Position numbers and translations under genes: made by a program
The notes under the pieces: generated by a model
Told to the model about the DNA's origin: nothing
The model's database searches: none
The model's input: the letters and a program-made list of their open reading frames with translations, nothing else
In this document: positions 3,279 through 17,323 of the stretch, one piece after another
Position numbering within the stretch: position 1 is the first letter of the stretch
Layout of the letters: the number at the start of each line of letters is the position of its first letter
From: Glaciimonas sp. PCH181
GTDB taxonomy: Bacteria > Pseudomonadota > Gammaproteobacteria > Burkholderiales > Burkholderiaceae_D
Length of the DNA stretch: 64,000 nt
Reading direction: 5' to 3'
Assembly (NCBI RefSeq): GCF_003056055.1
Contig: NZ_PYFP01000002.1
Location: 1,240,001 to 1,304,000 of the forward strand

Positions 3279-4163
3279 CTATTTTTCTTTACCAAATAAA
3301 CCGGCAGGACGAATCATCAAGACAATTGCCATCACGATGAAGACCACGGTCGCCGATGCTTCCGGGTAAAACACCCGGGTCAATCCCTCGATCACGCCTA
3401 AGGCCAGACCGGTCAGGATTGATCCCATAATCGATCCCATGCCACCGATCACCACAACCGCGAAGACGACGATAATCAGGTTCGAGCCCATCAGTGGTGA
3501 GACCTGGATCACCGGGGCCGCCAGCACCCCGGCAAAGGCCGCCAAAGCGACACCGAAGCCATACGTCAGGGTAACCATCAGCGGCACGTTAATACCAAAG
3601 GCTTCAACCAGTTTGGGATTCTCGGTGCCAGCACGCAAATACGCGCCGAGTTTGGTCTTCTCGATCACAAACCAGGTCGCAAAGCACACCACCAACGATG
3701 CAAACACGACCCAGGCGCGATAATTCGGCAACATCATGAAGCCAACATCCGTCGCGCCGCTTAACGCATCCGGCACCGAAAACGGCTGACCTGACACACC
3801 ATAAAAGGAGCGAAAAACACCTTCCACCATCAGCGTGATACCAAAGGTCAGCAGCAAACCGTATAAATGATCGAGTTTGTATAACCAGCGCAGCATGGTT
3901 TTTTCAATGATGATGCCGAACACGCCCACAATCAGCGGTGCCAGAATCAACATGACCCAATAATTCAGATTGAAATACGTTAACCCGATCCAGGCCAGAA
4001 ACGCGCCCATCATGTACAACGCACCATGTGCGAAATTAATCACGTTGAGCAGACCGAAGATGACCGCAAGGCCCAGCGACAACATGGCGTAAAACGAGCC
4101 ATTGACCAGACCGAGCAAAAGCTGGCTCATCAAGGCTTGAAGGGGGATGCCGAACAATTCCAT
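3279..4163 (-). CDS. livH: Branched-chain amino acid-type ABC transporter permease LivH
   Basis: This 294-residue membrane protein is the LivH half of the importer. The hallmark N-terminal GLVNGSFYAMLSLGLAVIFG and the following NFAHGALYMMGAF are both present, as is the conserved R-AG-EN-(K)-AFGIN cytoplasmic loop near residue 178-193 that docks to the ATPases. About eight membrane helices are visible. It lies 84 bp upstream of livM and 230 bp downstream of the binding-protein gene. No strong ribosome site precedes the ATG, so translation may depend on coupling or a weak site. Confidence 0.9.
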   Translation of the reverse strand: MELFGIPLQALMSQLLLGLVNGSFYAMLSLGLAVIFGLLNVINFAHGALYMMGAFLAWIGLTYFNLNYWVMLILAPLIVGVFGIIIEKTMLRWLYKLDHLYGLLLTFGITLMVEGVFRSFYGVSGQPFSVPDALSGATDVGFMMLPNYRAWVVFASLVVCFATWFVIEKTKLGAYLRAGTENPKLVEAFGINVPLMVTLTYGFGVALAAFAGVLAAPVIQVSPLMGSNLIIVVFAVVVIGGMGSIMGSILTGLALGVIEGLTRVFYPEASATVVFIVMAIVLMIRPAGLFGKEK

Positions 4164-4393
4164 GGCAATGTCATCATAAAAACACTTTTAATCTTGTCCC
4201 CGCTTCTATCGGTATCAAAGCCACAGTATTTGTCGGCTTAAACTACGCAAAGAAAATTTTTTGGCGGATATTTAAAAGTGATGAAGCATTAAAAAGCACA
4301 GCGATGCCTACGACGTATTACCCGCAACGTACTACGCACCACTGTGCCAGACTAAGTTAACTATGCAGTAAAGCAAACTTTAATGGCGACAGT

Positions 4394-5608
4394 TTATTTC
4401 CAGGCCGCACATTTAGAATCTGCTTTAGCCATAAATGCTTTTTCCGCAGGAATCGTTTGAATTTTGTTCAAATAATCCCAAGGGTATTTGGATTCGGCCG
4501 GTGTCTTTACCTGATACAACGTCATGTCATGCACCACCCGACCATCAGGACGCAAATACGCGTTCTTCGTGTACATGTCGTTGAATTTTACTTTCCGCAA
4601 TTGCGCCATAACTTTGTCGCCATCATCAGTACCGATAGCCTTCACCGCAGTCAGATATTGCATAGCGGCCGAATAGTCAGCAGCTTGCAAACTCGACGGT
4701 TCTTTTTTCATTTTTGAAAAATAACGTTTCGCCCAAGTACGTGATGCATCGTCCTGATCCCAATACCAGCTATCGGTCAAATACATACCTTGGGTCTGCT
4801 TCAATGTCAGCGAATGAATATCGTTAATAAAGACTAGCAAACCAGCCAACTTGGCGGTCTTAGTAATGCCGAATTCGTTCGCTGCTTTTACCGCATTAAT
4901 GGTATCGCCGCCAGCGTTTGCCAGACCAATAATTTGCGCTTTAGAAGCTTGCGCCTGCAACAGGAAAGAAGAGAAATCCGATGCATTCAGAGGATGCTTT
5001 ACTGCGCCCAACACAGTACCGCCAGAAGCCTTTACAACCGCTGTCGTATCTTTTTCCAGCGAGTTACCGAACGCGTAATCAGCTGTCAGGAAATACCAGC
5101 TTTTACCGCCCTGCTTTACTACCGCTGAACCAGTGCCGTTCGCCAAGGCGTACGTGTCATACGCATAATGCACGGTGTATGGCGTGCACTCTTCGTTGGT
5201 TAAACGCGTACTGCCCGCGCCGATTTCAAAGAAAGGTTTTTTCTTCTCGGAAGCAATTTTTGCCATCGCCAATGCCGTGCCGGAATTGGTGCCGCCGATC
5301 AGCATATCCAAGCCTTGTTGATCGAACCATTCACGCGCTTTGCTAGAAGCAATGTCGGCTTTATTCTGATGATCCGCCACTATTAATTCAATTTTTTTGC
5401 CATTGATACTGCCACCCATATCGGCGATGGCCATTTTGATCGCCTCAGCGCCGCCAGGACCATCGATATCGGAATAGACGCTCGACATATCGGTGATAAA
5501 GCCAATTTTAATGACGTCGCCGGATATTTGCGCCGCTGCTGGTCCGGCGATGCCGAAAGCGACTGTGCTGGCGACTGCTAGTGTCAATGCTTTGAATTTG
5601 ATGTTCAA
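4394..5608 (-). CDS. Periplasmic binding protein of the Liv-type ABC transporter
   Basis: This exported ligand-binding protein (about 404 residues) has a cleavable signal peptide ending near AGPAAAQ. It has the type-I periplasmic fold of Leu/Ile/Val-binding proteins: an IKIGF-TDMSSVYSDIDGPGG start, GG-INGKKIELIVADHQNK, and a hinge region around LTADYAFG-S. Start choice: an ATG lies at 5620, but GGAGAAG falls just before an in-frame TTG at 5608, and nothing resembles a ribosome site before the ATG. TTG giving M-N-I-K-F-K is therefore preferred, with the ATG as alternative. Its position between livF and livH fits a dedicated receptor. Divergence from classical LivK and the GMC oxidoreductase upstream leave the ligand open. 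Confidence 0.85.
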   Translation of the reverse strand: MNIKFKALTLAVASTVAFGIAGPAAAQISGDVIKIGFITDMSSVYSDIDGPGGAEAIKMAIADMGGSINGKKIELIVADHQNKADIASSKAREWFDQQGLDMLIGGTNSGTALAMAKIASEKKKPFFEIGAGSTRLTNEECTPYTVHYAYDTYALANGTGSAVVKQGGKSWYFLTADYAFGNSLEKDTTAVVKASGGTVLGAVKHPLNASDFSSFLLQAQASKAQIIGLANAGGDTINAVKAANEFGITKTAKLAGLLVFINDIHSLTLKQTQGMYLTDSWYWDQDDASRTWAKRYFSKMKKEPSSLQAADYSAAMQYLTAVKAIGTDDGDKVMAQLRKVKFNDMYTKNAYLRPDGRVVHDMTLYQVKTPAESKYPWDYLNKIQTIPAEKAFMAKADSKCAAWK

Positions 5609-5743
5609 TGTCTTCTCCATTTTTTACTATTTATGCGTTATTAAATGTTGATCTCAGCGTTGTCTCAGACGTTGTACCCACCGCCATTCAATCAATGCCA
5701 TTCGAAAGGATTAAAGCTGTCCTTTCCTCACTTCTACCCTGCC

Positions 5744-6520
5744 CTACACACCTAATAATGTATTCAATACCGGCATTTTTTCCTGTAACTGCGAGGCACC
5801 GAAAGTCTCAACAATCTGACCGTGTTCCATGACATAAAAACGGTCAGCCAACGGCGCTGCAAAACGGAAATTCTGCTCGACCATCACGATCGTATAACCT
5901 TTTGATTTCAGCAGCAAAATCATACGTGCCAACGCTTGCACAATCACTGGCGCAAGCCCTTCTGAAATCTCATCGAGCAACAATAAACGCGCACCGGTAC
6001 GTAAAATCCGCGCCACCGCAAGCATCTGCTGTTCACCACCCGACAGGCGTGTTCCCTGACTATTTTTGCGCTCTTCCAGATTCGGAAACATCGCATAAAT
6101 TTCCGCTATCGACATGCCTTTATCCGTCTTCGAAACAGACGGTGGCAGGAGTAAATTTTCCTCAGTTGAAAGCGACGAAAATATACCGCGTTCTTCAGGA
6201 CAATAACCAACACCGAGATGCGCAATTTTATGCGTAGGCAAGTCGATTGTTTCGACTCCACCGATACGAATTGCGCCTTTGCGTGTGCCGGTCAACCCCA
6301 TGATGGCACGCATCGTTGTGGTACGGCCCGCACCATTGCGGCCGAGTAATGTCACGACTTCACCTGCGTTTACCGTCAAATTAACGTTGTGCAAAATATG
6401 TGATTCGCCATACCAGGCTTGCAGATTGCTGATGCTTAATGCCGGTGGTGTACCGCTAACATTAGAGGTAGTTGCAGAAGTCCCTGCATCCGGAGAAATA
6501 ACAGACGACGTTGACGACAT
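5744..6520 (-). CDS. livF: Liv-type ABC transporter ATP-binding protein LivF
   Basis: This 258-residue ABC ATPase of the LivF type carries an N-terminal extension of ~25 residues rich in Ser/Thr. Signature LSGGEQQMLAVARIL and Walker B LLLLDEISEGLAP are normal; the E-I-SEGLAP form is diagnostic of LivF. Walker A reads GRNGAGRTTT, so the usual lysine is arginine (codon CGT). LivF-type proteins with this change may exist, but it is worth noting for ATP binding. The ATG overlaps the livG stop by one base (TAATG), so the two ATPases are translationally coupled. It pairs with LivG to energise LivH/LivM. Confidence 0.88.
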   Translation of the reverse strand: MSSTSSVISPDAGTSATTSNVSGTPPALSISNLQAWYGESHILHNVNLTVNAGEVVTLLGRNGAGRTTTMRAIMGLTGTRKGAIRIGGVETIDLPTHKIAHLGVGYCPEERGIFSSLSTEENLLLPPSVSKTDKGMSIAEIYAMFPNLEERKNSQGTRLSGGEQQMLAVARILRTGARLLLLDEISEGLAPVIVQALARMILLLKSKGYTIVMVEQNFRFAAPLADRFYVMEHGQIVETFGASQLQEKMPVLNTLLGV

Positions 6521-7290
6521 TAATGCGCTCCTTCAAGTGCGGCAGCTTCGGTGCCCATATAGGCTTCCATGACCAGCGGATTGGTCGACACTTCCTGATA
6601 GCGTCCTTCGGCCAACACCGCGCCACGTTGCAGCACGCTGATTTTGTCGCAAATTCCGGAGACCACGCCCATGTTATGTTCCACCATTAAAATGGTGCGG
6701 CCTACCGATACTTTTTTGATCAGCGCTGTGACGCGATCAACGTCTTCGTGGCCCATGCCTTGCGTCGGTTCGTCAAGCAGCATCAGCTCTGGTCCCATAC
6801 TCAGCGTCGTTGCAATTTCCAACGCGCGCTTACGGCCATACGGCAAATCCACGGTTAATGTGTCGGCAAATTCGGTCAGATCAACCTCCGCCAATAACGC
6901 CATTGCGCGATCTCTTAACTGGGATAAGGTATTACCGCTTTTCCAAAAATGAAAAGAAGTTCCCAGCGTGCGCTGCAAGCCTATTCGCACATTTTCCATC
7001 ACAGTTAAATGCGGAAACACGGCAGAAATTTGAAACGACCGAATAATTCCCTGACGCGCAATCTGCGCTGGTGCAGCGGAAGTAATGTCGCGATTGTTAA
7101 ATAAAATTTGGCCGGAAGTCGGCACCAGAAATTTAGTCAGCAAATTAAAACAAGTTGTTTTGCCCGCGCCGTTAGGCCCGATTAATGCATGGATATGACC
7201 ACGCTCAACTTGTAAGTTAACGTTATTTACCGCTGTAAAACCCTTGAATTCTTTCGTCAGGTTTTTTGTTTCCAAGATGATGTCGCTCAT
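6520..7290 (-). CDS. livG: Liv-type ABC transporter ATP-binding protein LivG
   Basis: This 256-residue ABC ATPase shows Walker A GPNGAGKTT near residues 38-46 and the LivG-type text FLVPTSGQILFNNRDIT. The signature region LPYGRKRALEIATTL replaces the common LSYG form, followed by Walker B LMLLDEPTQGMG and VEHNMGVV. The Walker A lysine is intact, unlike in its partner LivF. An AAGGAGACC ribosome site precedes the ATG. The 259-bp gap upstream, before the GMC oxidoreductase, may hold the promoter of the five transporter genes. Confidence 0.9.
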   Translation of the reverse strand: MSDIILETKNLTKEFKGFTAVNNVNLQVERGHIHALIGPNGAGKTTCFNLLTKFLVPTSGQILFNNRDITSAAPAQIARQGIIRSFQISAVFPHLTVMENVRIGLQRTLGTSFHFWKSGNTLSQLRDRAMALLAEVDLTEFADTLTVDLPYGRKRALEIATTLSMGPELMLLDEPTQGMGHEDVDRVTALIKKVSVGRTILMVEHNMGVVSGICDKISVLQRGAVLAEGRYQEVSTNPLVMEAYMGTEAAALEGAH

Positions 7291-7549: not shown

Positions 7550-9178
7550 CTATTTATCAGTTTTTTCTAAAATAAATTTAGCGGCCATTTCTGCAATCAT
7601 CACCGTCGGCGAATTGGTATTGCCAGAGGTAATCGTCGGCATAATAGAAGCATCCACCACACGCAACTTATTTACGCCAATTACACGTAATTTACTATCA
7701 ACTACGGCTAATTTATCGCCAACTTTACCCATCATGCAAGTGCCAACAGGATGAAAAATGGTCGTTCCGACGTCACCGGCAGCGCGAATTAATTCGGCTT
7801 CAGTTTGAAATTTCAGGCCCGGCAGAAACTCTTCCGGTGCATATTTTTGCAATGCTGGTGCAGCAGCAATTTTCCGTGTCAGCAACACAGATGCTGCTGC
7901 GACTTTACGATCAGCTTCGGTCGCGAGGTAATTTAAGGTAATTTTTGGGGCTGCCAAAGGATCACCTGAAGCCAGCCGAATATGTCCCCGGGAAGTCGGG
8001 CGTAAGTTGCATACGCTGGCAGTAAACGCCGGAAAATTATGCAACGGATCGCCGAATTTTTCTAACGATAATGGCTGGACGTGATACTCAAGATTAGCCG
8101 TTTTCTGGCTAGCATCTGACTTGGCAAATGCGCCTAATTGCGACGGTGCCATCGACATCGGACCGCTGCGAGACCACATATATTCCAGGCCGATTTTCAT
8201 TTTCCCCAGCCAGGTGCTGGTCATCATGTTTAATGTTTTGACGCCCTTGACCTTGAAGCCCATCCGTATTTGTAAATGATCCTGCAAATTTTCGCCGACC
8301 CCTGGTGCATCTACCAATACCGGTATTTGGTGTTGCTGTAACAGCGCTGCCGGACCAATCCCTGAAAACTGCAATATATGCGGCGATCCCACCGCGCCAG
8401 CACATAATAAAACTTCTTTTGTCGCTTCAGCCGACCATTCTTTGCCACCGCCGGTGAATTCAACACCGTTGCATTCTTTACCTTGCGCGCCATCATTAAT
8501 CTGAAGACGTTTTACGTGGCAACCAGTCATGATTTCCAGATTTCCGCGTCGTACGGCTGTGCGCAAAAATGCCTTTGACGCGTTCCATCGGATGCCGCGT
8601 TTTTGATTAACATCAAAATAGCCCACCCCTTCGTTATCCCCCTGATTGAAATCGTCAACTTTGGGAATCCCGGTTTCGGCTGCTGCATCGCGGAAAGCAT
8701 CCAGAATTTGCCATGACAAACGCTGTTTTTCTACACGCCATTCGCCACCAGCACCATGAAATGCGGTCGCGCCGTTGTAGTGATCTTCACTTTTCTTAAA
8801 AACCGGCAAGACATTTTCCCAGCGCCAGTGATCATCGCCGGTGAGCGCTGCCCATTGATCGTAATCGCGGGCCTGGCCACGCATATAAATCATGCCGTTA
8901 ATTGAAGAAGATCCGCCCAGTACTTTTCCACGCGGATAAATCAAGCTGCGATTATTCAGACCGATATCTGCTTCGGTGCGATATAACCAATCAGTACGAG
9001 GATTATTGATGCAATACAGATAGCCGACCGGGATATGGATCCATATGTAGTCGTCTTTGGCCCCAGCTTCGATCAACAACACGCTTACGTTGGGATCACG
9101 GGTCAATCTATTAGCTAATACACAACCTGCCGTTCCTGCGCCCACGATGACGTAGTCGTATTTACCCGCAACTTCCAT
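7550..9178 (-). CDS. GMC-family FAD-dependent oxidoreductase (choline/alcohol dehydrogenase-like)
   Basis: This 542-residue flavoenzyme of the glucose-methanol-choline family has the FAD-binding VIVGAGTAGCVLANRL near residues 9-24. The GMC signature GKVLGGSSSINGMIYMRG lies near 84-101. The C-terminal FHPVGTCMMG and NTNSPTVMIAEMAA blocks supply the catalytic His and flavin contacts. There is no signal peptide, so it acts in the cytoplasm. It would oxidise an alcohol to an aldehyde, as choline or long-chain/polyethylene-glycol alcohol dehydrogenases do; the substrate cannot be told from sequence. It is upstream and co-directional with the Liv-type transporter, which may import its substrate. 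AAGGA sits eight bases before the ATG. Confidence 0.85.
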   Translation of the reverse strand: MEVAGKYDYVIVGAGTAGCVLANRLTRDPNVSVLLIEAGAKDDYIWIHIPVGYLYCINNPRTDWLYRTEADIGLNNRSLIYPRGKVLGGSSSINGMIYMRGQARDYDQWAALTGDDHWRWENVLPVFKKSEDHYNGATAFHGAGGEWRVEKQRLSWQILDAFRDAAAETGIPKVDDFNQGDNEGVGYFDVNQKRGIRWNASKAFLRTAVRRGNLEIMTGCHVKRLQINDGAQGKECNGVEFTGGGKEWSAEATKEVLLCAGAVGSPHILQFSGIGPAALLQQHQIPVLVDAPGVGENLQDHLQIRMGFKVKGVKTLNMMTSTWLGKMKIGLEYMWSRSGPMSMAPSQLGAFAKSDASQKTANLEYHVQPLSLEKFGDPLHNFPAFTASVCNLRPTSRGHIRLASGDPLAAPKITLNYLATEADRKVAAASVLLTRKIAAAPALQKYAPEEFLPGLKFQTEAELIRAAGDVGTTIFHPVGTCMMGKVGDKLAVVDSKLRVIGVNKLRVVDASIMPTITSGNTNSPTVMIAEMAAKFILEKTDK

Positions 9179-9595
9179 TTGTCGTCCTTTTTTCCAGCCT
9201 TGAATTGGCTGTTTTTATAAATCGTCGTGAAATATTGTTTTGTTAACACTATTTCAATGCACCTGGTTCACACTGTTTTTGTCATCTTCAGGCAATTCTT
9301 ACGGTATTCGCAAAAGTAGCACCGATTCTGCAATTTTGCGATCGATACACACTTTTGTAGCAACACATGTACCTAGCTTAAATCTTCACGACCATATTTA
9401 TCCGTGATCTTACTTACTGGGAGCTTACCGACTGCGTATTTCGAAGGAAAAATCTCTATTTTGATGGACTGACCACATTTCTTCTCTTAAAGATGATTTT
9501 TAACAACTTTTTAGCGTAGCAAGTGTTCGTTTTTTTACAATTTATATGCTTAAACAATGGGCTTTTGGGGTGTTTTTCTGTTTTTGTATTTAATT
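9179..9595. other. AT-rich gene-free stretch upstream of the GMC gene
   Basis: No convincing reading frame was found. The stretch becomes steadily richer in A and T towards 9595 and should contain the minus-strand promoter of the GMC oxidoreductase gene in its left part. Its right part merges into the repeated DnaA-box modules. Confidence 0.6.
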
Positions 9596-9600
9596 TAAAG

Positions 9601-9810
9601 ATTTATATATATAAATAGTAGTAATAGTTAACACCCTCTTTTTCTGTGGATAACAGCTTAATAGTCTTTAAAAACAAGTACTTAAGAAAAGGATAAATAA
9701 GATTTAATGACTGTATTTGTTAACCATAATTGGTGGATAAAAAAAAGAAAATATTTAATGGATGCGTTATTCCCAAATTATGAACAGGGATATCCCTCGA
9801 CTTATCCACA
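9601..9810. repeat. DnaA module 1
   Basis: Left to right: AT-rich run 9601-9615; triplets TAG TAG TAA TAG TTA at 9616-9630; 14 bp; TGTGGATAA at 9645-9653; a one-mismatch box GGTGGATAA at 9732-9740; GATATC at 9789-9794; 7 bp; TTATCCACA at 9802-9810. Confidence 0.8.
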
Positions 9811-9997
9811 GACAAAGTAGCAGTTGCGTGCAGATGTTGTTTGCATGTTGTCTCGTTTGTATTTTTCATATGTTTTTTGGTATGAGATGGTAATTTTTTT
9901 ATGCATTTTGAAGTAGATGAACTCAGATTTTTTTTATTTGTATTTGTCGAACTACTTTGCGATTTTCACAGAACTTCGTTTCTGTTTTGTTTACTTG

Positions 9998-10206
9998 TTC
10001 ATATATATGAATAGTAATAATAGTAAACAACCTTCTTTTCTGTGGATAACACGAGATTCCTTTTTGTAAACAGGCGGTTACTACTTGGATAACAACCCAG
10101 ACAAGACTGTACTAAAAGCGGATAGCTGTTGAATAGAAAATTTAAAATCAAGTTATTCGCCAATTGCCCACATTTAGATCACAGGATATCAACAGAGTTA
10201 TCCACA
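9998..10206. repeat. DnaA module 2
   Basis: Left to right: AT-rich run to 10011; triplets TAG TAA TAA TAG TAA at 10012-10026; 14 bp; TGTGGATAA at 10041-10049; GATATC at 10185-10190; 7 bp; TTATCCACA at 10198-10206. It shares TTTGTAAACA-GCG just inside the first box with module 3. Confidence 0.8.
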
Positions 10207-10510
10207 AAATGATCAATTTCATATTAAAAACAGTCGCTTTTAGCCGATATTAAATGCTGACTAACGTTTTCTGGGTGATACATCGCTTGATAGGACGGCT
10301 GTAAAGCTGCTTGTCGTTTTTAATCCTCGCGTCTGTAGGGTGGTCAAACGTAATTTAACGCAAGAAATGCGGTAAAGAATCCGCAAAACGACGGTCTTTA
10401 GTCGTCGCTGTAGGCTAGTGAACAGTGCTTTTCTCTCTATCTTCGATGTAAACGCGCTCTGTTTCGGCATCATTTTTTCAAAAAATCCGGTTTTACGTCT
10501 TTTAGTTAAC

Positions 10511-10720
10511 GATTTATAGATATAAATAGTAATAATAGTTAACGACTGTTCTTTCTGTGGATAACAGCAAAAAACTATTTGTAAACAAGCGTTTGTAAAT
10601 TGAATAACGTTTGAGTAAACGCTGTATGAGAAATGAATAGTTGTTGAACAAAAAAATAAATTATCAAAAGTCATGAGATATCCCCACTTCAAGTAATAGA
10701 TATCCACAGGTTTATCCACA
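10511..10720. repeat. DnaA module 3
   Basis: Left to right: AT-rich run to 10526; triplets TAG TAA TAA TAG TTA at 10527-10541; 14 bp; TGTGGATAA at 10556-10564; GATATC at 10699-10704, itself part of a one-mismatch box at 10700-10708; 7 bp; TTATCCACA at 10712-10720. Confidence 0.8.
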
Positions 10721-10725
10721 TTTTG

Positions 10726-11028
10726 TCTTTTTTTAACGTGAAATTGCGTCAGACAAATGTGCTTATTCGCCATTGAACAAATGCAATAGAGGCTTCGAAG
10801 GAGGCCCGCAAAAGCAAAATTTGTAAGGAACTCAGAAGATAAAAAAGCGCATAAAACGTGATTTTTGGCACTACGGCGCCTATGAAATCGCTATGGATGA
10901 GGAATGAACGCTCTCAAAAGCAGATTGGAACGTTGCCGTAGTGAGATAACGATAATGTGGTGGGAAAGTTGTGTCGTTGGCTGCAAAACCGCACAGTTCC
11001 GGTTTTGCAGTCAGACAGCTAAGACAGC
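10726..11028. other. Gene-free stretch between DnaA modules and the AsmA gene
   Basis: No credible gene. Two structures are visible. One is a widely spaced inverted repeat, CACTACGGC at 10869-10877 and GCCGTAGTG at 10935-10943. The other is a perfect hairpin at 10981-11010, annotated separately. Confidence 0.6.
10981..11010 (-). terminator. Perfect 11-bp hairpin downstream of the AsmA-family gene
   Basis: CTGCAAAACCG (10981-10991) and CGGTTTTGCAG (11000-11010) form an uninterrupted 11-bp stem with an 8-nt loop, 19 bp after the stop of the minus-strand AsmA gene. There is no T-run after it on either strand. It could stabilise the 3' end or terminate weakly, and it would shield the DnaA-box region from transcription. 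Confidence 0.5.
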
Positions 11029-13059
11029 TTAATGCGCAGAGACAGCTGGTGGTGGAGGTGTAGAGGTCAGTTTTGGCGCAGAAGGTTTCAATTTGACCGT
11101 CCCAAGCAAACTGGCGCAATCGGTTTGCTGTTCGGAACCAAGATTAATCAACGGCACCAACGCGGCGACGGGGGCCAGAATACCGAGCGCAATCGCGCCA
11201 CCAGCCTTTAACGCCAGTACCCCTTTGTCTACCCCTACGTCAGGATTTTTAAAGGTGCCAGCGATGTATAGAGGCGATCTGAGCGAAATTATCCGTAGTC
11301 CTTTGCTTTTTGGCCGGATATTTAACGCCAGAGTCTCATTCGCCAGATTAATTTGACCGCTGATATCAATAATCGCGTCATCGGTATCCAGCAAGAACGT
11401 GCGGGTCTGCATCAGGCCATGCGTGATCGAAAAATCGCTGGCAAGACAATTCAATTTCACCTGCTTGTCGCCGAAAAGCTTGCTCAGCACCACGTTACCG
11501 ATGTTCAGACCTGCGGCTTCGAGGATGAATTTGCTCATCGTGCCTTGGTTGATTAAGGTTTTCAGCTCACCGTTAGAGGTCGCCAGCAGGCTCGCTACGG
11601 AGTTCCCGGTGCCCGACAGTGCTGCATCGCCATTTATCTCGCCAAGGCTGGCACGGGTCGATTCCAGCTTCGGAAACAGCTGTTTGATCTTGAGATGGCG
11701 TGCCGACAGCGCGATATCGGCTTTAATCGTCTTGTTGCTGCCATCGAGCTTGATCGTGGAGACCAGATTGCCACCCGCCACACCAAAGTTCAGTGGCGTC
11801 AAAGACAGCAAACTGTTGTTCAGATGGATATCGGCCTTGAGATTCTGAATCGGCAGCTCTTCGCTGCGGATGATTTTGTGTCCAACAAAATTTACATCCG
11901 CATCGATACTGCCCCAGCGTTCGGTATTGAATTCTTCTGTGGGCAATACTTTGTTGGCGGGCTGCATTTTGGTTGCACCACGGTTGGCTTTGCTGGCATT
12001 CGAATCGGCTCCGATCAGCGGTCCTAAATCTTGCAGTCGTAATTGGTTCGAGACCAGATTACCTTGCAGCAAAGGACGGGGTTTTTTCGCGATATAGGTC
12101 AGCGTGCCTCCTAAATCGCTTTCGCCGACGTGTCCGCTAAATTTTTCGTAGGTCCAGCTGCTATTTGCACCTTGCAGTTTTCCGATTAAGCGCCCTTCTG
12201 TCGAAAACGGTGGCGTGGCTGGCAACACAATTCCGGTGAGCGGATATAAGGCATCCATGCTGGCACCAGAAACTTTGAGCCGCAGGTCAAGCGCTGCCAG
12301 ATCGCTAGGTTTAGTTAAATTACCCTGGATATCGATTGCCGTTTTACCGACGCGCACGCTGGCTTGCAGCGGATACGGCGTGCTGCTGTTTTGCAGCGAT
12401 AACACCGCGCCAGCTTTACCACTGCCGGTCATTGGGGCTTTATTGAAATTGCCAGCGACGTTCCAACCGATGCCGTAACCTTCTTTACTCGTTATTGGTA
12501 GCGTGTCGATATTGGCTTTGATATCGATTTTCTGTAACGGATCAAGCAAACGTACTGTGCCTTTTGCGAGCACTAATTTTTGTAAATCCACTTCCCATTT
12601 GCTAGGCGCGCTAGGTGGAAAGGTCCAGTTATTTTTGCCATCGGCGGCGCGTTCCAGCATGACCAGCGGCGTATCCAATTGCAGTTCTGGCAGGACGATT
12701 TTCTTTTCTAATAAGGGCAGCAGACGCAACGAAAAAGTGACCTGCGCGACTTCGATCATATGCTGGCCGGTTTTGGCCCAATCCGTGTTATCCAGCACAA
12801 TATCTTTGGCGGTCAGTTGCGGCCATGGAATCCAGGCATGCCAGCCCTGCTCTTCCTGTGGTCGCAGCCAGTGCAGCGATAAGTCACCGCGAATGGCGAA
12901 AGGACGACCAGCCGCTTCACTCACGCGCTGGTTGAGCCAGGGTCTGGCCCGATTCCAGTCGAAAGTCAGCATTACCACGATGCAAATCGCGAGTATTACG
13001 AGCAAAATAGCAGCGCACCATCCAAGAATTTTGAATCCACGAAATCGGGTAGTAGTCAT
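11029..13059 (-). CDS. AsmA-family inner-membrane-anchored protein
   Basis: This 676-residue protein starts with one membrane anchor (about residues 9-31), followed by the AsmA N-terminal text DWNRARPWLNQRVSEAAGRPFAIRGDL. The rest is periplasmic and rich in beta repeats. The C-terminal AsmA block includes GELKTLINQGTMSKFILEAAGLNIGN and LFGDKQVKLNCLASDF. AsmA-like proteins of the VPS13/Chorein-like repeating-groove type are linked to phospholipid transport and outer-membrane homeostasis. It appears monocistronic: putA lies 364 bp upstream with its own terminator in between. A proline/Ala-rich tail (KLTSTPPPPAVSAH) ends the protein. Confidence 0.85.
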   Translation of the reverse strand: MTTTRFRGFKILGWCAAILLVILAICIVVMLTFDWNRARPWLNQRVSEAAGRPFAIRGDLSLHWLRPQEEQGWHAWIPWPQLTAKDIVLDNTDWAKTGQHMIEVAQVTFSLRLLPLLEKKIVLPELQLDTPLVMLERAADGKNNWTFPPSAPSKWEVDLQKLVLAKGTVRLLDPLQKIDIKANIDTLPITSKEGYGIGWNVAGNFNKAPMTGSGKAGAVLSLQNSSTPYPLQASVRVGKTAIDIQGNLTKPSDLAALDLRLKVSGASMDALYPLTGIVLPATPPFSTEGRLIGKLQGANSSWTYEKFSGHVGESDLGGTLTYIAKKPRPLLQGNLVSNQLRLQDLGPLIGADSNASKANRGATKMQPANKVLPTEEFNTERWGSIDADVNFVGHKIIRSEELPIQNLKADIHLNNSLLSLTPLNFGVAGGNLVSTIKLDGSNKTIKADIALSARHLKIKQLFPKLESTRASLGEINGDAALSGTGNSVASLLATSNGELKTLINQGTMSKFILEAAGLNIGNVVLSKLFGDKQVKLNCLASDFSITHGLMQTRTFLLDTDDAIIDISGQINLANETLALNIRPKSKGLRIISLRSPLYIAGTFKNPDVGVDKGVLALKAGGAIALGILAPVAALVPLINLGSEQQTDCASLLGTVKLKPSAPKLTSTPPPPAVSAH

Positions 13060-13423: not shown

Positions 13424-16400
13424 TTACGCTTCCAATGTCATCAAACTAGCGTTACCACCAGCGGCAGTGGTGTTCACGCATAAAGCACGTTCAGCGACGA
13501 GTCGCCAAAGCGGAATCGGTGCGAATTCAGAGGTTTCCAGCACCGGCACCAACGCCCCATCGCGCGCCGCCAGTAAAGGATGCAAACGCGCCAGCTCGGC
13601 GTTATCGACTAACGCCAGATTGAGTGAAATCCCCTCCGCATCGCTGCTATTGACGACGTTGTTAATAGTTACAATCGCCTCGCGAACGGGTTTAGGCAAG
13701 CCATTTGGGATGAATGCCGATGCAGATGCTTCAATCACCGGCGTATTGCCCGTGGCAAGGACAGCCGCGAGCTGATTCAACATCACGGCAACGCTTTGCG
13801 CGCTGCATAACACTGCGCCGCGGGGCGCAAATGACAAGGTATTGCGCTCTCCGGTAGGGCCGGGCAAGATCATCGAGGTACCGAGCCAGCTATCGTGAAT
13901 ATATTCCTGACCCAGCGCTGCGATACGTTCATGGCCGTGGGTTTTGGCCCATGCCAATAATGCTTGCAATGTCGACGTGCCTTTTCTGACCGTGGCGGTG
14001 GTCTCATGGATGGTGTGTGCGCCCAGATTCACCGTTGGATGACGTTGCAAACGTTTTAGATAAAGCGGACCACCAGCTTTAGGGCCAGTGCCGGATTTGC
14101 CTTCGCCACCGAATGGCTGCACGCCAACTACTGCGCCGACGATATTCCGATTGACATAGATGTTGCCGACATGCGCACTGCGTGAAATGAAATCGATCGT
14201 CTCGTCGATACGCGAATGCACGCCTAGCGTTAAGCCATAACCGCTGGCGTTAATCGCAGCGATCAGTTGCGGCAATTGTTCACGCGTATAACGCAACACA
14301 TGCAACACCGGACCAAATACTTCGCGCTGCAATTCATCTAGCGAGCCGATTTCAATCAGCGTCGGCGGCACAAACGTACCGTGATCTTCTTCAGCAGAAA
14401 GTGATAGCTGGAAAAAGTCTTTTGCCGTGGCTTTCATTTTCTCGATATGCGCCAGTAATTGTGTCTGCGCTTCGGCATCAATGACCGGACCGATATCGGT
14501 GACTAACCGATCGGGATTGCCGATGCGCAATTCCTGCATCGCGCCTTTTAACATGTGAATAGTGCGAGTCGCGATATCGTTTTGCAGACATAACACGCGC
14601 AGTGCAGAACAACGCTGACCAGCACTATCGAAGGCCGAACTCAGCACATCCACCACGACTTGTTCCGGCAGCGCGCTGGAATCCATAATCAATACATTTT
14701 GACCGCCGGTTTCGGCAATAAATGGCAGATCGATTTTTTCTTTGATTGCGCGTTGCGCCAGCGTACGATTGATCAGCTGGGCTACTTCGGTGGAACCGGT
14801 AAAGATCACGCCTTTTACCCGTGCATCCGCTGTCAGCGCCGCGCCGACAGTATCACCGCGACCCGGCAGCAATTGCAGCGCCGCAGCGGGAATGCCAGCC
14901 TGATGCAGCAACTGCACCGCACGCGTGGCAATCAACGGTGTTTGTTCAGCAGGTTTAGCAAGTACGACGTTACCTGCTGCAAGCGAGGCGCTAATCTCGC
15001 CGACAAAAATTGCCAGCGGAAAATTCCATGGGCTGATGCAGACCACTGGTCCCAGCGCCAATGCATTTTGTGCGCGAGAAATTTGCGCGGCGTAGTAACG
15101 TAAAAAGTCGACCGCTTCACGTACTTCAGCAATGCCATTAGGGAACGATTTTCCGGCTTCGCGGATCGCCAGCGCGATGAGTTCTAATTGATTTTCTTCG
15201 AACAAATCGGCAGCGCGCATCAGCATTTCGGCGCGGTCGGCTGTGGCGGTGGTCTGCCAGTCGATTGCATACGAAGTTGCGGCTTGCAAAGCCTGTTCCA
15301 CGTCATCCGCATTAGCTTCAATAACGGTACCAACGACATCGCGATGATCGGCAGGATTCAGAATTTGCAGTGCTTCACCCTCCCCGCTATGGGACTTTTC
15401 TGCAAGCAAAGGCATGGCTTGCCATTTGCGTCCGCCAAACTGCTGAAATGCCACATCGATTTCGCGTAATACTTCTTCGTTGCTGAGATCCAGACCTGCA
15501 GAATTTTTGCGCTCGGCACCATACAGCGCGCGCGGCAAAGCGATATTCGCGTGAGGTTCACCACCAAGTTTGCGTGCAGCATCAAGCGGATCTGCAATTA
15601 GCATATCGATGGAAACATTTTCATCGACGATTTGATTTACGAAGGATGAATTCGCGCCGTTTTCTAACAGTCGTCGTACCAGATAAGCCAGCAAAGTTTG
15701 ATGTGAGCCGACTGGTGCATAAATCCGGCACGGCTTATCCAAATTATCTTTTCCGACTACTTGATCGTAGAGTGTTTCGCCCATGCCGTGCAGACATTGA
15801 AACTCATAATCGGTGATGCCTTTTTCTTGCGCCCAACTATAAATAGTCGCCAAAGTATGCGCGTTATGCGTCGCAAATTGCGGATAAATGACATCGGTTG
15901 CCGCCAGCAATTTTTGCGCACAGGCAAGGTAAGAAACATCAGTGTAAATCTTGCGGGTATATACCGGATAACCGGGCATGCCATCGACTTGCGCACGTTT
16001 GATTTCAGCATCCCAATACGCACCCTTCACCAACCGGACCATAAATTTTTGACCGCTGCGACGCGCCAGATCGGCCAGATAATCAATCACGAAAGGACAG
16101 CGCTTTTGATAGCCCTGGACAACGTAGCCGAGCCCCTGAAAACCGGCCAGATCAGGATCAAATGCCAGCGCTTCCATCAGATCGAGCGACAGTTCCAGCC
16201 GATCGGCTTCTTCCGCATCGATATTCAGGCCGATATCGTACTGTTTAGCCAGTAATAACAGCTGTTTTAAACGCGGCAATAATTCGCTCAGCGTGCGTTG
16301 TTGTTGAGCGCGTGAATAGCGCGGATGCAGCGCCGATAATTTGACTGAAATGCCCGGACCGTCTTTAATGCCGCGCCCTGCCGAGGCTTTGCCGATGGCG

Positions 16401-17134
16401 TGAATTGCGGTTTCATACGACTGGTAATACGCCTGCGCATCTTCTTCGGTCAGCGCCGCTTCGCCCAGCATGTCGTAAGAGTAGCGATAACCGCGTTTCT
16501 CATTTTCACGACTATTTTTAAGTGCCTCGTCGATGGTTTGTCCGGTGACGAATTGATTTCCCAGCATACGCATCGCGACATCCACGCCTTTGCGGATCAA
16601 TGGCTCGCCGCCCTTGCTGATCAGTTTAGTCAGCGCCGAACCCAAACCGCGCTCGCTATTCGTACTCACCAGTTTGCCGGTGATCAATAATCCCCAAGTT
16701 GCCGCATTGACGAACATCGATGGCGATTCGCCCAGATGACGACGCCAGTCGCCTTTACTGATTTTGTCAGCGATCAATCGATCCGCCGTCTGATAATCGG
16801 GAATCCGCAACAATGCCTCGGCCAGACACATCAGCGCCACGCCCTCTTCCGATGAAAGCGAGAATTCATGCATCAGCGCATCGACGCCAGAGGCGCGGGT
16901 ACGTTTTTCGCGTACTGATTGCACCAACTTACGTGCCAATTGCTGGCTGGCAGCGTGTGCTTGCGGCGTATCTTCCACCTGCCCCAGCAACCATTGCACA
17001 GCCAGCGATTCATCGCGGCGATAGGCGGCAGTAATGGCTGCGCGCAATGGCGACGGGTTGCGCGTCACTTCTGCGTGAAATGCGGTGAATGGAAGCGTGC
17101 TCAGAGGGGAAGTCGGCGTTGCGTGCGTCGGCAT
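13424..17134 (-). CDS. putA: Bifunctional proline dehydrogenase / pyrroline-5-carboxylate dehydrogenase PutA
   Basis: This is a long trifunctional-length PutA (1236 residues from the ATG at 17134; an in-frame TTG at 17167 would add 11). The FAD proline dehydrogenase barrel spans roughly residues 170-480, including GRGIKDGPGISVKLSALHPRY and FMVRLVKGAYWD. The aldehyde dehydrogenase domain (about 530-1000) has FTGSTEVA for NAD, catalytic Glu808 in FIAETGGQN and nucleophile Cys842 in SAGQRCSAL. A C-terminal ALDH-like extension follows. The enzyme converts proline to glutamate and feeds electrons to quinone. The N-terminus starts directly with the alpha-domain (FTAFHAEV) and lacks the ribbon-helix-helix DNA-binding domain of E. 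coli PutA, so it should not repress itself. The divergent Lrp-type gene is the likely regulator. Confidence 0.95.
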   Translation of the reverse strand: MPTHATPTSPLSTLPFTAFHAEVTRNPSPLRAAITAAYRRDESLAVQWLLGQVEDTPQAHAASQQLARKLVQSVREKRTRASGVDALMHEFSLSSEEGVALMCLAEALLRIPDYQTADRLIADKISKGDWRRHLGESPSMFVNAATWGLLITGKLVSTNSERGLGSALTKLISKGGEPLIRKGVDVAMRMLGNQFVTGQTIDEALKNSRENEKRGYRYSYDMLGEAALTEEDAQAYYQSYETAIHAIGKASAGRGIKDGPGISVKLSALHPRYSRAQQQRTLSELLPRLKQLLLLAKQYDIGLNIDAEEADRLELSLDLMEALAFDPDLAGFQGLGYVVQGYQKRCPFVIDYLADLARRSGQKFMVRLVKGAYWDAEIKRAQVDGMPGYPVYTRKIYTDVSYLACAQKLLAATDVIYPQFATHNAHTLATIYSWAQEKGITDYEFQCLHGMGETLYDQVVGKDNLDKPCRIYAPVGSHQTLLAYLVRRLLENGANSSFVNQIVDENVSIDMLIADPLDAARKLGGEPHANIALPRALYGAERKNSAGLDLSNEEVLREIDVAFQQFGGRKWQAMPLLAEKSHSGEGEALQILNPADHRDVVGTVIEANADDVEQALQAATSYAIDWQTTATADRAEMLMRAADLFEENQLELIALAIREAGKSFPNGIAEVREAVDFLRYYAAQISRAQNALALGPVVCISPWNFPLAIFVGEISASLAAGNVVLAKPAEQTPLIATRAVQLLHQAGIPAAALQLLPGRGDTVGAALTADARVKGVIFTGSTEVAQLINRTLAQRAIKEKIDLPFIAETGGQNVLIMDSSALPEQVVVDVLSSAFDSAGQRCSALRVLCLQNDIATRTIHMLKGAMQELRIGNPDRLVTDIGPVIDAEAQTQLLAHIEKMKATAKDFFQLSLSAEEDHGTFVPPTLIEIGSLDELQREVFGPVLHVLRYTREQLPQLIAAINASGYGLTLGVHSRIDETIDFISRSAHVGNIYVNRNIVGAVVGVQPFGGEGKSGTGPKAGGPLYLKRLQRHPTVNLGAHTIHETTATVRKGTSTLQALLAWAKTHGHERIAALGQEYIHDSWLGTSMILPGPTGERNTLSFAPRGAVLCSAQSVAVMLNQLAAVLATGNTPVIEASASAFIPNGLPKPVREAIVTINNVVNSSDAEGISLNLALVDNAELARLHPLLAARDGALVPVLETSEFAPIPLWRLVAERALCVNTTAAGGNASLMTLEA

Positions 17135-17323
17135 GGTGGTTGTCTCGGAATAAGTAAAAAGCAACAAAAGGAAAGGAAACTAGTAGAATTGCGGAATATT
17201 GCAGAATGTTTGCGAATCGATCGATTGTAGGCGTCATTACGATGGATTTATTCTGGTAATTGGGGCGTCTATCAGAATTTTCTTATCAATGAGGAAATTT
17301 GACCGAATAAAATTTTTCTGGAA
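17135..17323. promoter_or_regulatory. Divergent putA / lrp control region
   Basis: This 189-bp intergenic stretch between oppositely transcribed putA and the Lrp-type gene must hold both promoters. The centre contains AT-rich text with CGATCGATCG-like symmetry near 17216-17226 and should contain the Lrp-type binding sites, although no single operator can be fixed by eye. Confidence 0.5.

Follow-up and report, generated by a model that had tools for sequence, protein, structure and literature searches.

The window, i.e. the whole 64-kb stretch of DNA that was analysed, corresponds to positions 1240001-1304000 of contig C2 of genome G000, and positions are given below within it unless a contig is named. 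A cluster of DnaA boxes occupies 9596-10723. It is bordered on the left by the gene of a GMC oxidoreductase (7550..9178, minus strand; Pfam PF00732/PF05199), beside which the genes at 3279-7290 were taken, from their translations, to resemble those of liv branched-chain amino acid transport, and on the right by the genes of an AsmA family protein (11029..13059, minus strand; PF05170) and of the proline utilization protein PutA (13424..17167, minus strand; Pfam PF01619/PF00171/PF14850). An open reading frame of 170 aa over the third repeat of the cluster (10261-10773, minus strand) was rejected as spurious, since it has no Pfam match and runs through conserved, putative origin DNA. Rfam detected three tRNAs in the window, none of them at the cluster, and a blastn search of 9500-10800 against PLSDB returned no plasmid match, thus giving no sign of a plasmid origin.

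The cluster holds six perfect DnaA boxes (TTATCCACA, both strands), at 9645, 10041 and 10556 on the minus strand and at 9802, 10198 and 10712 on the plus strand. These are the only perfect boxes in the window, where 0.34 would be expected, and none of 100 dinucleotide shuffles contained six or more, which places the clustering beyond chance; the whole 5.3-Mb genome has 44. The preliminary description of this DNA had read the six boxes as three modules in about 1.1 kb, and this arrangement was confirmed to the base. On recheck, the box-pair spans (166, 166 and 165 bp for m1, m2 and m3) and the R1-to-R1 distances (396 and 515 bp) were identical to those first given, and each module does contain the reported five triplets exactly 14 bp from TGTGGATAA and the GATATC exactly 7 bp from TTATCCACA (repeat families D1 and D2). 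From left to right, every module comprises AT-rich DNA, five DnaA-trios, 14 bp, an R1-type box (TGTGGATAA on the plus strand), an IHF-like 13-mer, conserved weak boxes, and GATATC-N7 leading into an R4-type box. The IHF-like site at a fixed +28, the extra conserved weak boxes and the recurrence of the array through the family go beyond that first account.

In module m1 (9596..9813, plus strand; 112.9 bits against module model R1), the AT-rich stretch GATTTATATATATAAA (9600..9615, plus strand), a putative unwinding site with a similar AT-rich stretch across alignment A1, is followed by the trios TAG TAG TAA TAG TTA (9616..9630, plus strand), a perfect R1-type box (9645..9653, minus strand), the IHF-like site AAACAAGTACTTA at +28 from R1 (9672..9684, plus strand; 8 of 9 specified consensus positions, or 12 of 13 when the four N positions that always count are included) and a GATATC-N7-R4 element with a perfect box (9789..9810, plus strand). 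Module m2 (9993..10209, plus strand; 114.8 bits) has the trios TAG TAA TAA TAG TAA (10012..10026, plus strand), a perfect R1-type box (10041..10049, minus strand), the IHF-like site AAACAGGCGGTTA at +28 (10068..10080, plus strand; 7 of 9 specified positions) and its GATATC-N7-R4 element, again with a perfect box (10185..10206, plus strand). The same elements return in m3 (10507..10723, plus strand; 118.9 bits), with the trios TAG TAA TAA TAG TTA (10527..10541, plus strand), a perfect R1-type box (10556..10564, minus strand), the IHF-like site AAACAAGCGTTTG at +28 (10583..10595, plus strand; 8 of 9) and a GATATC-N7-R4 element with a perfect box (10699..10720, plus strand).

Each module thus has the layout of an E. 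coli-type core, with R1 and R4 inverted and the unwinding side outside R1. The 245-bp E. coli oriC (DUE, R1, IHF site, weak boxes, R4) shares the order and orientation of these elements, with R4 facing left at the right end. Module model R1, derived from 48 of 58 well-formed modules, aligns colinearly with the K-12 sequence over a stretch that begins before R1 and reaches R4, scoring 21.1 bits; the E value is 3.1e-7 when only 1.8 kb are searched and 7.8e-5 in a search of 463 kb. The IHF-like site lies, by its sequence, between R1 and the next boxes, as in E. coli, whose best IHF match is also at +28 with 7 of 9 specified positions, compared with 7-8 of 9 for the putative sites of the window. 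When offsets from +21 to +36 were scanned in 21 genomes, the best match fell at +28 in all 42 modules with a perfect R1, with scores of 10-13 of 13, four positions being free. The geometry is nearly constant as well: R1 and R4 span 165-169 bp in 55 of 58 modules and 153-154 bp in the other three, as against 189 bp in E. coli. In those 21 genomes R1 is perfect in 42 of 46 modules and the last R4-type box in 40 of 46, the degraded copies (4 and 6 of 46, respectively) lying outside the window.

The unwinding side also resembles the basal unwinding system of B. subtilis, where repeated TAG-like trios likewise adjoin a box. The rule for such a system, as worded in the relevant part of PMC8287927, asks for at least three NAN trios beside a DnaA box with a spacer of at most 16 bp. 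In all three modules the five triplets stand 14 bp from the box, and the central base is A in four or five of them (TTA has T), while the bacterial spacers given in that part peak at 10-13 bp with a maximum of 16 (Pelliciari 2021, PMC8287927). In the portion of PMC12342881 that deals with the in vitro evolution of E. coli oriC, trio-like KAK motifs rose from three to five or seven, against the five trios per module observed here. Compared with E. coli, the family modules have cleaner trios in place of 13-mers. Moreover, the GATC-rich DNA and SeqA sequestration of E. coli, which form a regulatory layer and not part of the core, have no counterpart here, with only two GATC sites in the 1128 bp of the cluster and no SeqA match in the genome. 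The genome does encode DnaA, IHF alpha, IHF beta and a second Bac_DnaA-domain protein of 250 aa, presumably Hda-like given its size. As a side observation, contigs C1 and C2 of G002 contain many extra Bac_DnaA-domain matches, six with identical E-value, match span and frame length; our guess is that these are probably the ATPases of an insertion sequence.

The preliminary description had placed the modules away from dnaA, and the dnaA domain match indeed lies 71 kb to the left of the array (C2:1178362-1178841). It had also reported, from hand counts, a hint of a change in GC skew, which proved real in the cumulative skew of 424 kb (C2:1040001-1464000) of the 1.67-Mb contig. The curve drops through dnaA (-1321) and flattens at the array, with values of -3983 and -3957 at its two edges; the exact minimum (-4021) is at 1257014, 6.3 kb to the right of the array. 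A minimum at dnaA had been set beforehand as a possible refutation of an origin at this place, and the minimum was found near the array instead. In the closed genome G004, of the same genus, skew was sampled 42 times, and all 21 values of the left arm are negative while 19 of the 21 values of the right arm are positive; the left arm is negative on both sides of dnaA (1.979 Mb), and the best split, at 2.045 Mb, is next to the modules at 2.0403-2.0414 Mb. The sign change is noisier, yet near the modules, in G051 (dnaA 363 kb away; 6 of 9 left samples negative and 10 of 10 right positive, a straddling sample being omitted) and in G005 (where about 719 kb lie between dnaA and the modules; all 8 left samples negative and 8 of 12 right positive, the straddling sample being counted left). 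Local skew over 8.5 kb on each side of the array rises in 18 of 21 genomes, failing in G018, G026 and G029. Since the resolution of skew is in kilobases, it cannot tell which module fires.

These data bear directly on the alternative that the cluster is no origin but a DnaA titration or regulatory locus, the true origin being at the nearby dnaA. DnaA-box clusters of that kind exist, another is found in the same genome at C3:308074-309698, and dnaA is also flanked by perfect boxes. Nevertheless, we hold this alternative to be very improbable: dnaA is within the negative-skew arm, while the minimum on the own contig and the sign change of G004 are at or near the array; module model R1 has no match, at E up to 0.01, in locus L012, which holds dnaA; and every module has trios and an AT-rich stretch at a fixed place, whereas datA- or DARS-type loci lack an unwinding element and lie away from the origin. 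Of the three options first offered (chromosomal oriC, second origin or titration locus), the first is therefore strongly favoured by skew, synteny and the completeness of the cores, and the cluster is very probably the chromosomal oriC.

Two further DnaA-box loci of this genome deserve a description of their own. At C3:308000-309800 (L029:9000-10800) there is an array of box pairs TTATCCACA-N5-TGTGGATAA, 14 bp start to start, in which six pairs have at most one mismatch per box and five are then followed by an exact reversed IHF consensus at exactly +38. A strict pattern for this array was present in 5 of 100 genomes, namely G058 and four from the genus of the window (its own among them), and by analogy the locus looks like a datA- or DARS-type regulatory locus of the kind treated in part of PMC5742627. 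The second locus, C2:1196928-1197343 (L013:16928-17343), has three perfect boxes between two open reading frames, 52 kb from the array and off the skew minimum; the flanking frames look like priA and hemE. A putative second oriC beside hemE has been listed for Ralstonia pickettii (Gao 2015, PMC4403523).

The age of the copies could be read from their relationships within the genus. In G000, G001, G002 and G004 the modules group by position and not by genome, forming the clades m1 (which includes a copy of G003), m2 and m3, with supports of 96/96, 99/93 and 96/87, respectively. When each copy was compared with those of the other genomes of this group, its closest match had the same position in 34 of 36 comparisons; identities were 60-78% between same-position copies, 55-65% between different positions of different genomes and 54-64% between copies within one genome. 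This grouping across species means that the copies predate the species, evolve separately and have all been kept. Over four species, m1, m2 and m3 have identities of 0.73, 0.70 and 0.72, compared with 0.53-0.55 in shuffles, while spacer 1 (9814..9992) and spacer 2 (10210..10506) are barely conserved, with mean identities of 0.53 and 0.52 near their shuffled background (0.50 and 0.49). As the three modules are about equally conserved and the spacers are near background, selection seems to keep all three. G003 holds m1 and a second copy closest to m3 of G000, so that, on the evidence of these sequences, m2 was probably lost there. A recent duplication or an assembly artefact without function, such as slippage or misassembly can produce as adjacent direct repeats, is accordingly a reading to which we attach practically no weight: the copies of one genome are only 54-64% identical and still group by position across species, the spacers have diverged and the modules have not, and the array also occurs in the single-contig genomes G004 and G051. 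In the genus of the window, the three-copy architecture is real and old, and multiple copies are found family-wide.

Outside this genus, descent is less orderly. One common ancestor each for m1, m2 and m3 throughout the family was tested and found no support, since the position labels do not form three clades (13, 16 and 3 changes, respectively). In G016, G031 and G036, from other genera, the own copies cluster together, positional clades holding within the genus of the window. Copies must thus have been gained, lost or homogenised repeatedly.

As to the distribution, poor conservation of the spacing in relatives would have spoken against the first interpretation, and the box-pair pattern was found to recur family-wide. 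The strict pattern is present in 33 of 100 genomes, the own one included, all of them among the 60 of the own family, with none among 40 from other families; the reversed pattern, used as a control over the same 100 genomes, gave none. Module model R1 matched 371 of 392 Oxalobacteraceae genomes (338 of 346 of good quality), leaving 21 of 392 without a match at threshold. Among the 371, one copy was counted in 60, two in 205 and three in 106, so a single copy per chromosome is not the usual state: at least two matches were found in 311, and three copies are present here. Such counts give the number of model matches in a genome after stricter filtering, five candidates having been scored, and may be low or include off-array matches; for instance, G008 has one by the family count and two by closer search, and in G006 one of three adjoins dnaA. 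Genera have typical counts among their matched genomes, namely three in g6 (38 of 39) and g18 (51 of 56), two in g40 (47 of 54) and g26 (31 of 33), and one in g5 (17 of 18) and g7 (9 of 9), and copy number rises with genome size over 41 genera (Spearman 0.66, kinship being ignored). The 60 matched genomes with one copy and the 21 without a match indicate that multiplicity is not essential to the family.

Among the matches listed, named records with modules came from Herbaspirillum, Janthinobacterium, Duganella, Massilia and Undibacterium, of which Herbaspirillum, Massilia and Undibacterium are all Oxalobacteraceae. A loose box-pair scan of named genomes gave many matches in unrelated phyla, probably by chance, and only seven Oxalobacteraceae loci among the matches listed were used, as a basis for naming the family. 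The neighbourhood is also shared: at least one of the liv genes, the GMC oxidoreductase and PutA was found at the ori locus of 20 out of 20 relatives (GMC oxidoreductase in 17, liv in 17, PutA with more than 60% identity in 15), and the AsmA family protein had a match in 7 of the 20.

The arrangement of the copies varies. Within the 20-kb loci of 21 genomes, start-to-start distances range from 314 to 2258 bp, most repeated cores being 0.3-0.9 kb apart and those of G043 2.3 kb; closeness was checked in these 21 genomes, in 35 further-searched ones and in the listed rows of the family count. In the 20 relatives for which a 20-kb locus was analysed, the array is tandem in 17 and an inverted pair in G018, while G025 and G028 have a single copy. 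The 35 genomes were chosen by hand among genera that had few copies or had already shown an inverted pair, and comprised 13 with opposed pairs, 6 with tandem pairs, 14 with one match, one with a partial second match and one with matches on different contigs. The inverted pairs (G006, G018, G020, G034, G057, G119, G137, G166, G179, G200, G211, G222 and G233; genera g3, g15, g17, g22 and g31) have their unwinding sides facing inward in 13 of 13 cases, none being tail to tail; six are from one genus, so these are not 13 independent events. The direction of the array relative to the liv genes also varies between genera.

Both proximity and the inward-facing unwinding sides could suggest that the modules cooperate as one multipartite orisome, in which DnaA would loop the DNA from one cluster to another, in the manner of the bipartite origins known from B. 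subtilis and H. pylori. Such cooperation appears unlikely to us. The start-to-start distances are variable, the orientation relative to the neighbours flips between genera, each copy has a full DUE-like stretch and a two-sided box set, and one matched copy suffices in 60 of 371 genomes; the differing orientations fit independent units better than one rigid complex. A bipartite oriC consists of non-identical box clusters sharing one unwinding site. That of B. subtilis is arranged around dnaA and that of H. pylori has two unlike parts flanking dnaA, with one unwinding side, while every module copy here owns an AT-rich stretch and trios as an unwinding-type site of its own. The H. pylori origin is likewise described with more than one DnaA-box cluster (in part of PMC8235120; also in Gao 2015, PMC4403523), but the units here are complete, repeated and away from dnaA.

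In other Burkholderiales families, two ori-like matches near each other were noticed (L280, L274, L271-L273, L275-L278). G507 (L280) has an inward-facing pair about 3 kb apart and G521 (L274) a tandem pair, in both cases with trios, and the remaining loci hold mostly partial ori-like pairs about 260-610 bp apart. Multi-unit origins may reach beyond the family. Weaker ori-like matches in other families are either beside dnaA (e.g. G089, G542, G433, G517) or 14-132 kb off (e.g. G085, G543, G637, G668), so oriC seems to have been separated from dnaA on more than one occasion.

Within the family, the distance between modules and dnaA is from about 7 to about 719 kb in the 20 of 25 genomes that have both on one contig (G005, G029 and G031 being treated as circular). 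Related cases have been published. In Cupriavidus metallidurans CH34, from another family of the order, the skew of chromosome 1 switches next to three perfect DnaA boxes, at a distance of about 90 kb from dnaA, and the part of the report on this origin describes no repeated complete core (PMC2864759). For Herbaspirillum seropedicae SmR1, of the same family, the origin was sought by skew and DnaA sequences and the probable origin was put in or next to dnaA-dnaN, the corresponding section mentioning no modules (PMC3093359). In G029 (genus g26, taken as Herbaspirillum solely because it shares a stretch with L072), about 7 kb separate the modules from dnaA, and the array and the dnaA-dnaN region thus lie close together. 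As stated in parts of the respective papers, Collimonas chromosomes were rotated to start at dnaA, and the exact place of the origin of chromosome 1 was called unclear in a B. cenocepacia study. In this family, prediction of oriC at dnaA, or numbering from dnaA, may err by up to hundreds of kb.

Gao (2015, PMC4403523) collected a few putative double origins per bacterial chromosome, none shown in use; they belong to few single species and are 150-882 kb apart or in duplicated dnaA regions, unlike the present modules, which recur in a whole family and, in one genus, are orthologous by position. The preliminary description had considered a triplicated core to be new, which is consistent with the open-licence full-text literature, where no description of tandem complete oriC cores was found.

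Taken together, the skew minimum near the cluster, the sign change in a closed relative, the syntenic conservation and the complete core in each copy identify the cluster as the probable chromosomal oriC, and we consider it highly likely that 9596-10723 is the chromosomal replication origin, composed of three complete E. coli-type cores in a row, each of them maintained by selection. By analogy with E. coli and B. subtilis, DnaA would bind the two strong boxes of each core, R1 and R4, and IHF would introduce a bend at +28, in the stretch that separates R1 from the boxes following it; the weak boxes between R1 and R4 would be filled by DnaA. A DnaA-ATP filament would extend from R1 onto the five trios, opening the AT-rich stretch, which would admit two DnaB helicases. 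The three cores would be alternative start sites about 0.4-0.5 kb apart, of which the first to assemble would fire, its forks passively replicating the others. Because of this passive replication, the array would behave as a single origin whose probability of firing is raised or made more robust. The sequences show the location and anatomy of the array, its skew, its distribution in the family and the age and conservation of every copy; binding by DnaA and IHF, the unwinding, and the identity and number of the copies that fire are predicted from better-known origins.

A different division of labour, in which one master module is the sole start site and the others are accessory DnaA-loading or titration platforms tuning the timing, datA-like within the origin, is possible, if doubtful. 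Extra complete cores bring extra high-affinity boxes, perfect R1 or R4 boxes have been lost in some copies, and in P. aeruginosa one of two autonomously replicating origins is the essential one in the laboratory (Gao 2015, PMC4403523). Against it, the three copies are about equally conserved in the genus of the window, each retains an AT-rich stretch and trios that titration does not need, and no copy of the window stands out by its model score. That every copy is able to fire is, from the sequences, plausible, with the balance about even.

The wider claim, that Oxalobacteraceae chromosomes naturally carry two or three adjacent, separately competent oriC cores, each self-sufficient to start replication, is one to which we would give an even chance. 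Bacterial chromosomes are, as a working rule, taken to have one oriC each. Most of the relatives examined have two or three copies, as against the single oriC of E. coli, and such a natural multiplication of complete cores throughout a family calls into question the textbook view that a chromosome has one such unit. If the claim is true, the origin of this family would consist of clustered, redundant initiators under joint control that does without SeqA, their copy number being fixed by selection in each genus. The reason for the multiplication of cores and their firing once per cycle without SeqA become testable in this family, as do the essential parts of an origin, thanks to the many natural sequences with a fixed geometry of R1, IHF site and R4.
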